From positions 248,001 through 312,000 of the forward strand of contig NC_015636.1 in NCBI RefSeq assembly GCF_000179575.2: a DNA stretch of 64,000 bases. Reading direction: 5' to 3'. A program made the translations under genes and the position numbers. The DNA comes from Methanothermococcus okinawensis IH1. GTDB taxonomy: Archaea > AGJL01 > Methanococci > Methanococcales > Methanococcaceae. The notes under the pieces are model-generated. The model had not been told where the DNA came from and ran no database searches. It saw only the letters and a program-made list of their open reading frames with translations. Position 1 is the first letter of the stretch. Every line of letters starts with the position of its first letter. Shown one piece after another: positions 1 to 64,000 of this stretch.

Positions 1-684
1 AGGTGTATAGAAGCATACAATAATAAATCTTCCATAATGGAGGAAGCTAAGAGGATTCACAAAGAAGATATCGAAGTATGTAAAAAAATAGGGCAAATAG
101 GAGAAAAGATTATCGATGATGGAGATACTATTTTAACACACTGTAATGCAGGAGCTCTTGCAACTTCGGCATATGGGACGGCATTAAGTGTTATTAGGTT
201 CGCATACTATAACAACAAAAAAATTAATGTTATAGCAGATGAAACAAGACCAAGACTACAAGGTGCAAAATTAACGGCATTTGAACTTAATTATGAAGGC
301 ATTCCTGTTAAAGTTATTCCTGATAATACCGCTGGTTTTTTAATGAAAAAGGGCATGGTTGATAAGATTGTAGTTGGGGCAGATAGGGTTTTAAGGGATT
401 ATACTGTGTTTAATAAAATAGGCACTTATTCCCTTGCAGTTCTTGCAAAATACCACAATGTACCATTTTATGTGACAGCACCCTATTCAACATTTGATTT
501 TAAGAACAACATTGAGGATATTACAATTGAAGAAAGGGATGAAAAGGAGGTTATATATATAGACGGCGTTAGAATAATTCCAGAAGGTGTTTCGGCATAT
601 AATTATGCGTTTGATGCCACACCAGCAGAGTTAATCACTGGAATAATCACTGAGAAGGGCATAATTCATCCAAATAATAGATAG
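1..684 (+). CDS. mtnA: S-methyl-5-thioribose-1-phosphate isomerase, 5' end cut off by window edge
   Basis: The reading frame is open from base 1, so the first internal ATG at 37 is not the real start and the N-terminus lies outside the window. The protein shows the MtnA signature HCNAGALAT with the catalytic Cys, an ADETRP loop, and GADR with the catalytic Asp, followed by NKIGTY. The eIF2B and ribose-1,5-bisphosphate isomerase relatives usually have THCHS in place of HCNAG, which favours MtnA. The family isomerises methylthioribose-1-phosphate to methylthioribulose-1-phosphate in salvage of 5'-methylthioadenosine. In methanococci this route has also been linked to aromatic amino acid precursors; that is literature knowledge, not visible here. 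Confidence 0.8.
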   Translation, partial: RCIEAYNNKSSIMEEAKRIHKEDIEVCKKIGQIGEKIIDDGDTILTHCNAGALATSAYGTALSVIRFAYYNNKKINVIADETRPRLQGAKLTAFELNYEGIPVKVIPDNTAGFLMKKGMVDKIVVGADRVLRDYTVFNKIGTYSLAVLAKYHNVPFYVTAPYSTFDFKNNIEDITIEERDEKEVIYIDGVRIIPEGVSAYNYAFDATPAELITGIITEKGIIHPNNR

Positions 685-931
685 TCAATAATAAAATAAT
701 AAAATCGAAATAAATAATAAATAATAATTAAGTATTGTTGGATTAAATAGAAGTAAAAAATAAAAGATAAAAAAATAAATGGAAAATACGAAAAAATATT
801 TATAATGTAAATTACCTTTAAGTTATGGTTCATTCTATATTGGATGTTTATAATTATAATTTATTTATACTCCATAAATCATTAAATGAAACTTAATATT
901 TAAAATATTAAAAAATAAAAAGGATGATAAT

Positions 932-2248
932 ATGTATATATTAGGAGATTGGAGAAGAACGCACTTTTCAAATGAAATAACACCAGAAATGGATGGAGAA
1001 GAAATCATTGTTATGGGATGGACTCATTCCATAAGAAAATTGGGAAAATTGGTATTTATTATATTGAGAGATAGAGAGGGAACAGTTCAAATAGTAGTTC
1101 CTAAACAAAAGGTATCCGAAGAGGTATTCACCACGGCAAAATCCGTAGGAAGGGAAGATGTAATTGCTATAAAAGGTAAAGTTGTGGCAAATGAAAAGGC
1201 ACCAGCAGGATTTGAAATAATACCAGTTGAAATTAGAATATTGAATAAGGCAGAAACACCACTTCCATTAGACCCATCCGAGAAGGTTCCCGCTGATATT
1301 GATACAAGATTGGATAGAAGATTTTTAGATTTAAGAAGACCAAAAATACAGGCATTATTTAGATTAAGGTCTGAAATGTTAAAATCAGTAAGAGATACAT
1401 TTTACAATAATGGATTTATTGAGGTAAATACTCCAAAACTTGTAGCAAGTGCAACAGAGGGAGGAACAGAATTATTCCCAATATCCTATTTTGATAGGGA
1501 GGCATTTTTAGGTCAAAGTCCGCAGTTATACAAACAGATGATGATGGCAGCAGGATTTGATAGGGTATTTGAAATTGGACCTATATTCAGAGCAGAGGAA
1601 CACAACACAAGAAGACATTTAAACGAGGCCATATCTATTGACTGTGAAATGTCATTTTCAGATGAAAAGGATGCCATGAATGTTCTTGAAAATGTGGTTC
1701 ATAATGTATTTGTTGATTTGTATGAAAATAACCAGAAGGAGCTCCGAACATTAGATATAAATTTAAATGTTCAAGAAACACCATTTCCAAGAGTAACCTA
1801 TACAGAAGCAGTTGATATTGTAAATTCAAAAGGAATCGATATGGAATGGGGTGAAGACTTTTCAAGGGCTGCTGAAAAAATACTTGGGGATTCTATGGAA
1901 GGATTCTATTTTATCACAGAGTGGCCAACTGAAACAAGACCATTCTATACACTTCCAAATCAGGAAAACCCTAAAATCTGTAAGGCTTTTGATTTAATGT
2001 ATAAGGATTTGGAAATTTCATCCGGAGCTCAGAGAAATCATAAATACGATTTGCTTGTTGAAGGCATTAAAAGAATGGGACTCAATCCAGAAGGCTTTGG
2101 AACCTACTTAGAAGCATTTAAATATGGTATGCCACCACATGCAGGTTGGGGTATGGGAGCTGAAAGATTTATGATGATAATTACATGTCAGGAAAATATT
2201 AGGGAGTGTGTCTTATTCCCAAGAGATAGGCAGAGATTAACCCCATAA
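932..2248 (+). CDS. aspS: aspartyl-tRNA synthetase, archaeal type, probably non-discriminating
   Basis: This 438-residue class IIb synthetase has an N-terminal OB-fold anticodon-binding domain (about residues 1-105) and a catalytic domain with motif 2 around [14 protein letters not shown] and a C-terminal motif 3 with GMGAERF and FPRD. An ATG at 932 follows a GGATGAT ribosome-binding site. The loop GWTHSIRK carries His, and EKVPADID carries Pro, where tRNA-Asp-specific archaeal enzymes have Trp and Lys. From memory of that literature, His plus Pro marks enzymes that also charge tRNA-Asn with Asp, for later amidation by GatCAB. The residue assignment was made by eye. Confidence 0.93.
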
Positions 2249-2424
2249 TAAGGATTATAAGGATTATTTAAAAATAATATAAATTTTAATTATATTTTAA
2301 TTTATCAATATGGTTGTTGTGGATATGTTTAGTGCATATAGTATATATATGATAATATATAAAATAATGAATATATCATACTATATGTTATAATATATAC
2401 TATTAAATACTACTTGGTGAAAAT

Positions 2425-2706
2425 ATGGTTTCAAAAGACGATGTTTTAAATGCTTTAAAAAAAGTCGCAGACCCACATATGGGTGTAAGCATAGTAGACA
2501 TGGGATTAATAAAAAATATAGAAATTGACGAAGAAAACAAAGTTTCATTTGATTTAATCCCCACAAACCCAGGATGTATGAGCGTCATGGGCATGGCTAT
2601 GGATGCAAAAGAAGCTGTTAAAGCTATTGAAGGGGTAAAGGATGTAAAGGTAACTGTAAAAGGGCATCTTATGGAAGAAGACATAAATAAAATTATTAAT
2701 GGATAA
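2425..2706 (+). CDS. MIP18/DUF59-family iron-sulfur cluster assembly factor
   Basis: The 93-residue protein is a single DUF59 (MIP18) domain: an N-terminal helix, then [14 protein letters not shown], a beta strand, and NPGCMS holding the one conserved Cys. Family members (SufT, MIP18, the N-terminal part of some ApbC/Mrp proteins) help insert iron-sulfur clusters into target proteins in the cytosol. The ATG follows GGTGAAAAT. It sits alone between aspS and hisS with 160-180 bp spacers on both sides, so operon membership is unclear. Confidence 0.85.
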
Positions 2707-2870
2707 GTTTTAAATTTTTTTATTTATTATTTATTTTTTTATCAATAGAAAAAAAGAATTTTAGAATTTTAACATATCTATTATTAATAAAATACTATAT
2801 TTTTTATATAATTATTTTTATTATTTTTATCATTCATTATTACAATTATAAATTTATATTTGGTGAAATA

Positions 2871-62452: not shown

Positions 62453-62814
62453 AATACCACCGATATAACCATATTTTTATTATATTTTTATTATATTTTT
62501 AGAGCTCCTATATAAAATGTTGCCTTACGATACATAAGGCAATAATTGGTAAAAAATTTATGAACTAAACTACTAAATTTTTAGAAATATATTATTATAT
62601 GTTTATATTATTATCAATAAATATAGTTATAGTTAAATATATAATATTATAAATTAATAATATTAAAACTGAATATTTGCATATATTAATAAATACATAT
62701 TAAAATTTTAAAAGATATTAATAAATCAAATAAAAAAATTACAATAATTATATGATAAATATAATAAGTAAATAAAAATGTAAAAATATAAAAAACAAAA
62801 TAAAGGTAATTTTA
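62453..62814. other. intergenic region between integrase and divergent HTH gene
   Basis: The 362-base spacer holds one GAGCTC (62502), a leftward TATA-like box in TATATAAAA (about 62509-62517) that suits the integrase, and the inverted repeat at 62521-62543. The rest is A/T-rich with no coding signal. Confidence 0.4.
62521..62543. repeat. 8-7-8 inverted repeat beside the integrase gene
   Basis: Arms TTGCCTTA and TAAGGCAA are perfect and separated by seven bases (CGATACA). The layout fits a core crossover site of a tyrosine recombinase or a dimeric repressor operator. It lies about 70 bp from the integrase start and stands out in G+C from its surroundings. Confidence 0.6.
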
Positions 62815-63342
62815 ATGATTGAATTAAAATTTAGCCATTTTTTAAGATGGGATGAAATAAATAAACTCGTGGAAAAGGCAAAAAATAACATGGTTATAGT
62901 TAAACTACCACTTAGCATATATAATAATCCAAAAATGACATATAAAATCGAATTTATGAGAAAAAATCACATAATCGTAGAATCGGAAAATAACAAAAGG
63001 GGACGAAAAGAAAAACTAAATGAAAATATAAAACAGGAAATTCTCGAACTATATAGAGAGGGATATTCGATAAATAAAATAGCTAATATGTTGAAATTGC
63101 CAAAAAGCACAATATTTACCAATGTAAAAGATGACATAAATAAAATAAAAATTGAGATGAAAAAGGAGGAGCTCACCTCATTGGTTTATGAATATAAGGA
63201 ATACCTTATTAAAAACGATTTGTATCATCCATATATCGAATCTCAATTTATGGAATTAAAGGTGTATGTAGATAATAACGACTTGGAAACTGCATATAAT
63301 AAATTAAAAGAGATAATTGAATATATTAAAAGTCAAAAATAA
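62815..63342 (+). CDS. helix-turn-helix protein of unknown function
   Basis: The 175-residue protein is not assigned to a family. Residues 1-58 form an unknown alpha/beta part. Residues 60-105 (RGRKEKLNENIKQEILELYREGYSINKIANMLKLPKSTIF) are a resolvase- or transposase-like helix-turn-helix. The rest is helical and Lys/Glu-rich. It is divergent from the integrase across 362 bp, so it may control the integrase or act as its partner. Confidence 0.65.
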   Translation: MIELKFSHFLRWDEINKLVEKAKNNMVIVKLPLSIYNNPKMTYKIEFMRKNHIIVESENNKRGRKEKLNENIKQEILELYREGYSINKIANMLKLPKSTIFTNVKDDINKIKIEMKKEELTSLVYEYKEYLIKNDLYHPYIESQFMELKVYVDNNDLETAYNKLKEIIEYIKSQK

Positions 63343-63411
63343 ATGCACCTTCTTTTCTTTTTATCATTATCATTATATTATCCTTATATATACCAACTAT
63401 AATATTGTAAG

Positions 63412-63924
63412 TTAAATAAGATAATCCTTTTTACTTAACCGTTTTATTCTATTTTCTCCGTCTATTTCATCAATAACCTCAACAACCTCCCCTGGAACCA
63501 AATGTTTCCATTCTTCATTATTTAATATTCTTCTCCTTATTTCAGTTCCAGAGTATTCTTTTCGATTATATAATTTAGGTTTTTTAACCACATAACCTCT
63601 TTCTTCAAAGAGCTCTCTTACTAATGCATTACCTGTATATATTAAATCAAAAGGTGGAGTCAAAGATTCAACATAAGATACCCACAACGCATTAAAGTCT
63701 ATATCCCTGATTGGAATAACATAATACGGGAATCCAAATTTTTTAAGTGTTTTGATAATCATCATTATCCGTTCCCCTGCTGTAAATGGGTCATTAAGGG
63801 TATGGCTTTTTTGAGCACTGCCTACACCTATAATAATCTCATCTACATCATTGGCGATTTCTTTTATTATTGTCAAATGACCGTTATGAAAGGGTTGCCA
63901 TCGTCCAACTACAAGAGCTCTCAA
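63412..63924 (-). CDS. nicotinamide-nucleotide adenylyltransferase, archaeal type
   Basis: The 170-residue protein begins [16 protein letters not shown], with the HxGH motif of nucleotidyl transferases, and ends with [10 protein letters not shown], the ISSTxxR-like motif. It makes NAD from NMN and ATP. The start is TTG at 63924 behind GGTGAAATA; the GAGCTC formed by its second to fourth codons falls right at the start. Confidence 0.93.
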
Positions 63925-64000
63925 TATTTCACCTATTATTTACCTATTATTTTACCCATCTATTTATTTAGATAATTTAAATAGAAAAGTATATATATAA

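Follow-up and report, generated by a model that had tools for sequence, protein, structure and literature searches.

GAGCTC in Methanothermococcus okinawensis: a highly iterated palindrome apparently undescribed for Archaea

GAGCTC occurs 87 times in the 64,000-nucleotide stretch of the Methanothermococcus okinawensis IH1 chromosome analyzed here (contig NC_015636.1, positions 248,001 to 312,000; hereafter the window), where composition (29.4% G+C) predicts 3.7 occurrences. The excess is real and genome-wide, is not explained by codon usage, and appears to reflect a pressure that acts on the complete hexamer. Apparently, GAGCTC is a highly iterated palindrome (HIP) of a kind hitherto undescribed for Archaea; our tentative explanation is that it forms the core of a site of about 10 bp for a putative dimeric DNA-binding protein.

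Abundance of GAGCTC and codon use

A first-pass annotation of the window had put the count at about 87 against about 4 expected, with about 15 sites in a longer form; exact counting agrees, the longer form GGAGCTCC accounting for 15 of the 87 (chromosome positions 249738 to 309632). The first site is at 152 and the last at 63915, an average of about one per 735 bp. Four sites had been assigned to spacers. That at 62502 was exact and those given as 53931, 53965 and 54631 are really at 53913, 53964 and 54629, but all four do lie outside open reading frames (ORFs). From the exact count, position list and ORF table, the sites (unstranded) are:

152..63920, 87 GAGCTC sites across the entire window, including 15 GGAGCTCC (exact count and positions)
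53913..53918, GAGCTC in an inter-ORF spacer (position list, ORF table)
53964..53969, GAGCTC in an inter-ORF spacer (position list, ORF table)
54629..54634, GAGCTC in the spacer separating a HepT-like gene from hsdR (position list, ORF table)
62502..62507, GAGCTC in an inter-ORF spacer (position list, ORF table)

The genome (G000) consists of a chromosome of 1,662,525 bp and a plasmid of 14,930 bp. The entire chromosome contains 2,057 sites (one per 808 bp, or 1237 per Mb) against a composition expectation of 96, and the plasmid carries another 13. Markov models of orders 1, 2, 3 and 4 predict 82, 138, 395 and 1262 chromosomal sites. The observed/expected ratio falls to 1.63 at order 4, probably because many of the GAGCT and AGCTC pentamers behind that model lie in the sites themselves. 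Two other comparisons proposed in the first-pass annotation gave clear answers: among all palindromic hexamers GAGCTC is the lone outlier of over-representation, and its density is even along the chromosome, with no regional or origin/terminus pattern. Spacing is Poisson-like (mean 808 bp, coefficient of variation 1.03), and nearby sites show no helical phasing past the codon period.

Could protein sequence or codon choice produce these numbers? The first-pass annotation had argued not, from the presence of sites in all frames and in spacers. To preserve both protein and codon usage, synonymous codons were shuffled within each gene. The genes contain 1911 sites versus 181.4 ± 13.5 after shuffling, a 10.5-fold excess, and every phase is raised: 1030 versus 64.7 (16-fold) for the phase that reads Glu-Leu (GAG CTC), and 661 versus 98.7 (7-fold) and 220 versus 18.0 (12-fold) for the other two. 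Non-coding DNA adds 116 sites versus 3.2 expected, so the excess is not confined to one codon pair. Half of the coding sites are indeed Glu-Leu GAG CTC, as codon usage, dipeptide preference or chance might have it, but the excess over shuffles in three phases and in non-coding DNA leaves such explanations with practically no probability, and codon usage and chance are excluded as the cause. The palindrome rather leaves its mark on codon usage: 28% of Glu-Leu pairs (1030/3628) are written GAG CTC, and sites account for 48% of the CTC codons.

Carriers, complete sites and flanking bases

Counts cover 36 genomes of the phylum. Four are carriers, namely G000 (2070 sites), G003 (1315), G010 (1645) and G012 (1515); the remaining 32 have 4 to 229. 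By AspS, the closest named genomes are Methanothermococcus assemblies, at 93% and 81%. In a tree of this single gene, G010, G000 and G003 group together beside eight non-carriers that form a clade, and G012 is placed with the Methanococcus-like genus g3, apart from the other carriers. This distribution may represent two gains, or one gain plus losses; one gene cannot decide. For G012 there are 13 shared sites versus 10.3 expected, numbers too small to bear on an independent origin.

It is the complete site that appears to be under pressure; one-base variants do not persist. On the chromosome, exact sites number 2057 and the 18 one-base variants, summed, only 1745, whereas the comparison word GAGGTC has 121 exact versus 4326 one-off occurrences. 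Orthologous positions, which the first-pass annotation had suggested comparing between sister species, tell the same story, sites being either intact or far gone and rarely one base off. In the 323 genes that G000 and G010 have in common, 30% of G000 sites are intact in G010, 9% are one base off and 32% are three off; the corresponding figures for GC-matched control words are 17% intact and 35% one off. Ratios of one-off to intact were: G010, 0.30; viewed from G010, 0.16; G003, 0.33; G012, 0.47. GC-matched words gave, in the same order, 2.10, 2.19, 1.63 and 2.69. Sharing of sites with G010 exceeds the stratified base rate (z = 9.1).

Two bases on either side also influence whether a site exists, and the preference is species-specific. 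Relative to other Glu-Leu pairs, CG preceding the site is enriched 11.5-fold, and AA and TT stand at 0.11- and 0.06-fold. Non-coding sites follow the same trend, 13 of the 116 being CGGAGCTCCG. At positions -2 and -1, CG/AG is preferred in G000, G003 and G012; in G010 a G occupies -1 in 83% of sites and GGGAGCTCCC is favored. Sixty-two percent of G000 sites are shared with G010 where their form fits G010 (GGAGCTCC), and 14% where neither flank fits. This flank pattern suggests a motif of the kind that proteins recognize, about 10 bp long and differing in dialect between species.

A head-tailed provirus (L004; terminase, capsid and tape measure genes by PHROGs, and a portal-like gene) lies just outside the window, at 317.7-340.0 kb of the G000 chromosome. 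Its 22.3 kb contain 15 GAGCTC versus 2.2 in shuffles, which is half the chromosomal density, and many one-off forms (39). A related provirus in another genome (terminase 72% identical) has none in 12.6 kb; the corresponding span of L004 has six. Since the provirus is enriched and its relative is without sites, the pressure seems to act on DNA residing in this cell and to need time.

The sister clade avoids AGCT. Loci of two named relatives, 81% identical in AspS, lack AGCT altogether, in 21.3 kb (56 expected) and 5.5 kb (17 expected); a third has 4 versus 46 expected. G005 has 14 GAGCTC in 1.5 Mb. An AGCT-specific restriction system in the sister clade would be a plausible reason for the avoidance. 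Near-total avoidance was seen at the sister-species loci L192 (0 in 21 kb), L193, L194, L036 and L037. In AGCT-avoiding G005, locus L054 (213-2193) has a PF01555 methyltransferase adjoining a 415-residue protein without a Pfam match, and this pair is a candidate AGCT restriction system. Enzymes akin to this methyltransferase also occur in other genomes that have fewer GAGCTC.

Candidate explanations

The first-pass annotation had likened GAGCTC to HIP1 of cyanobacteria, and the likeness holds for abundance, density, occurrence in coding and non-coding DNA, palindromic core and patchy distribution among species. Like HIP1 (GCGATCGC) and the alternate HIPs (GGCGCC, GGGATCCC, TCGATCGA, rCCGGy), GAGCTC is a GC-rich palindrome present at hundreds to thousands per Mb and favored in its exact form. 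It is an extreme outlier among palindromes, goes beyond codon use, and lies within the HIP density range of 500-2500 per Mb (PMC4390886). It is not HIP1 proper, whose core is GATC/CGATCG rather than GAGCTC; GATC is 40-fold depleted in the chromosome (108 versus 4299 expected). Unlike the cyanobacterial HIPs it is archaeal, its flanks differ between relatives, and no cognate methyltransferase was found in known families or by motif. It resembles Chi recombination sites in being the most over-represented oligomer of its genome and in its high density, but unlike them is palindromic and without orientation. The open literature searched (subscription journals being outside the search) describes no such element for Archaea.

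What HIP1 does in cyanobacteria has been under debate since 1995. Another instance, now from a second domain of life and with carriers and non-carriers in one family and dialects between species, makes the HIP question testable in methanogens. Since this HIP apparently has no methyltransferase, palindrome and methylation, which are confounded in cyanobacteria, come apart here. There are practical consequences too. GAGCTC is the SacI site, and its dominance of Glu-Leu codon choice distorts the codon tables of these genomes, along with their restriction maps and any comparison based on composition.

The explanation that we tentatively favor, at slightly less than even odds, is that GAGCTC is an archaeal HIP recognized by a symmetric (dimeric) putative DNA-binding protein with a footprint of about 10 bp, under pressure for complete sites. 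Sites would arise by ordinary, mostly synonymous, mutation at places close to the motif, and would then be held by selection or by biased repair acting on the whole site. Many complete sites would be of advantage to the cell, or else to the DNA molecule that carries them, candidate benefits being repair or recombination, packing of the chromosome, or a label for own DNA. Random spacing and the small effect of gene position suggest that individual sites probably play no part in local regulation and that the genome property is the density of GAGCTC. A binding site was among the roles put forward in the first-pass annotation, and the influence of flanks out to two bases and their divergence between species favor it; on the other side, no binding protein was identified or even nominated in this analysis. 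More speculative and somewhat less probable is the fuller scheme of a putative archaeal dimeric protein that acts chromosome-wide (in own-DNA recognition, repair or packing) as a methylation-independent counterpart of HIP1, its recognition having diverged between sisters and another sister clade restricting AGCT.

Besides the want of a nominated protein, several observations weigh against a DNA-binding protein as the explanation. The absence of a methyltransferase is judged by known families and motifs, and a novel enzyme could be missed. The rare CTC codon is also shared between G000 and G010 outside sites (odds ratio 9.6), so that site sharing alone is no proof of selection. Sites per kb in non-coding DNA are one third of the coding density, which a uniform need for sites does not predict, with the qualification that near-miss sequences there are also about half as many. 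Finally, residue pairs are conserved in 62% of cases at sites and in 61% at other Glu-Leu pairs. Because conservation at sites is no lower, the data do not establish a pressure on the protein, and we do not claim an amino-acid drive. Glu-Leu dipeptides are nevertheless commoner in carriers (1.26 and 1.29 versus 1.07).

An orphan methyltransferase that modifies GAGCTC (or AGCT), with methyl-directed mismatch repair creating and preserving sites, is in our judgment an unlikely source of the palindrome. Its density would suit such an origin, as would the predominance of exact over one-off sites, which fits a ratchet towards the full palindrome; and in a set of 97 cyanobacteria, alternate HIPs that reach high frequency are accompanied by their own methyltransferase (PMC4390886). 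The window does encode one candidate enzyme, and a type I modification subunit:

27948..28811, + strand, D12-class N6-adenine DNA methyltransferase (PF02086, E = 2e-75)
28825..29706, + strand, DpnII-family restriction endonuclease (GATC) (PF04556, E = 2e-102)
51176..52690, + strand, type I HsdM, with 3 GAGCTC by count (PF02384, E = 1.6e-63)

The D12 enzyme is partnered with the DpnII nuclease and is thus predicted to be a GATC methyltransferase and not a GAGCTC enzyme. Searches of G000 with PF00145 (C5 enzymes) gave no match except a weak one of 354 residues, whose type is common to the order, and with PF01555 none except a THUMP-type RNA methyltransferase. What remains in G000 is two HsdM of type I and, on the plasmid, a type IIG-like protein that is absent from G003 and G010. 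In G010 no D12 or C5 enzyme was found beyond weak matches like those in G000, and its PF01555 enzyme adjoins an MjaI-type (CTAG) nuclease. None of the PF01555, PF00145, PF02086 or plasmid IIG enzymes found in the 36 genomes is common to the four carriers, and none of these queries, nor the window D12 enzyme, gave matches that follow the carrier set. Matches to the NPPY/DPPY motifs that were examined and set aside are a nickel insertion protein, a polyamine synthase, a small methyltransferase nearest PrmA, and the THUMP-type RNA methyltransferase. A need for bases two outside the core is atypical of a 6-bp methyltransferase. The methylation mark proposed in the first-pass annotation is weakened, as no Type II-like methyltransferase fits and the four carriers have none in common.

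Similarly improbable, as we see it, is a sequence that promotes DNA uptake or recombination. Cells would take up or recombine motif-bearing DNA in preference, and the motif would spread by molecular drive in the manner of the uptake sequences of Neisseria and Haemophilus. Like these uptake signal sequences (USS) and DNA uptake sequences (DUS), GAGCTC occurs about once per kb, mostly in genes, with flank dialects in relatives; it is also on the plasmid and in the provirus, and the related Methanococcus maripaludis is known to undergo natural transformation (PMC10133366). Known uptake sequences, however, are not palindromes (PMC1939737), whereas GAGCTC is a perfect one. Moreover, genomes of the Methanococcus-like genus g3 are without the element, and the literature searched describes no sequence-specific uptake for Archaea.

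Still less probable is a context-dependent mutation or repair bias that confers no benefit, such as Vsr-like T:G repair or GC-biased conversion. A repair bias had also been suggested in the first-pass annotation, and in its favor the element builds up on all DNA that resides in the cell, and T>C at the last position is the most frequent of the single differences from G010. A simple C/T bias is weakened by the single-base differences at homologous sites, which fall at all six positions and include transitions and transversions (A>T, C>T and G>A towards the site among them), unlike the product of one mutational route. Other GC-rich palindromes are, moreover, depleted and not enriched.

Window genes and other palindromes

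The first-pass annotation had pointed to a TnpB element and to hsdS as lacking GAGCTC. This is true but uninformative at a spacing of about 808 bp.

13665..14402, + strand, TnpB-like ORF, 0 GAGCTC, not significant at such length (OrfB_IS605 and Cas12f1-like TNB domains)
52704..53609, + strand, type I HsdS, 0 GAGCTC by count, not significant at such length (PF01420)

Taken together, hsdM, hsdS and hsdR with their spacers contain eight GAGCTC in the 6.2 kb of the type I region. At 54259-57193, a HepT-like toxin-family ORF is placed between hsdS and hsdR, and hsdR itself consists of two overlapping frames of 600 and 258 residues, the second with the EcoEI_R_C domain. The split suggests that the type I nuclease is frameshifted.

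Avoidance of GATC extends in part to the plasmid (8) and the provirus (4). The target of a resident restriction-modification system is expected to be under-represented, as GATC is; GAGCTC is over-represented. The G000 chromosome strongly avoids many other palindromic hexamers (observed/codon-shuffle expectation in genes: GTCGAC, 0; CTGCAG, 0.07; CTCGAG, 0.11; GTGCAC, 0.11), to an extent that its resident restriction systems do not account for.

Loci of Ca. Mnemosynella were considered as possible instances of the same element and rejected, their counts (28 and 27 versus 16 in shuffles) being mostly codon use. A distant archaeon, G058, has 1938 GAGCTC in 1.4 Mb and only 4 CTCGAG, yet 1376 CTGGAG. 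In Ca. Methanorudis spinitermitis a different palindrome is abundant: locus L204 (21.3 kb) has 60 TAGCTA versus 6.6 expected by composition, 50 of them within ORFs versus 18 in synonymous shuffles.

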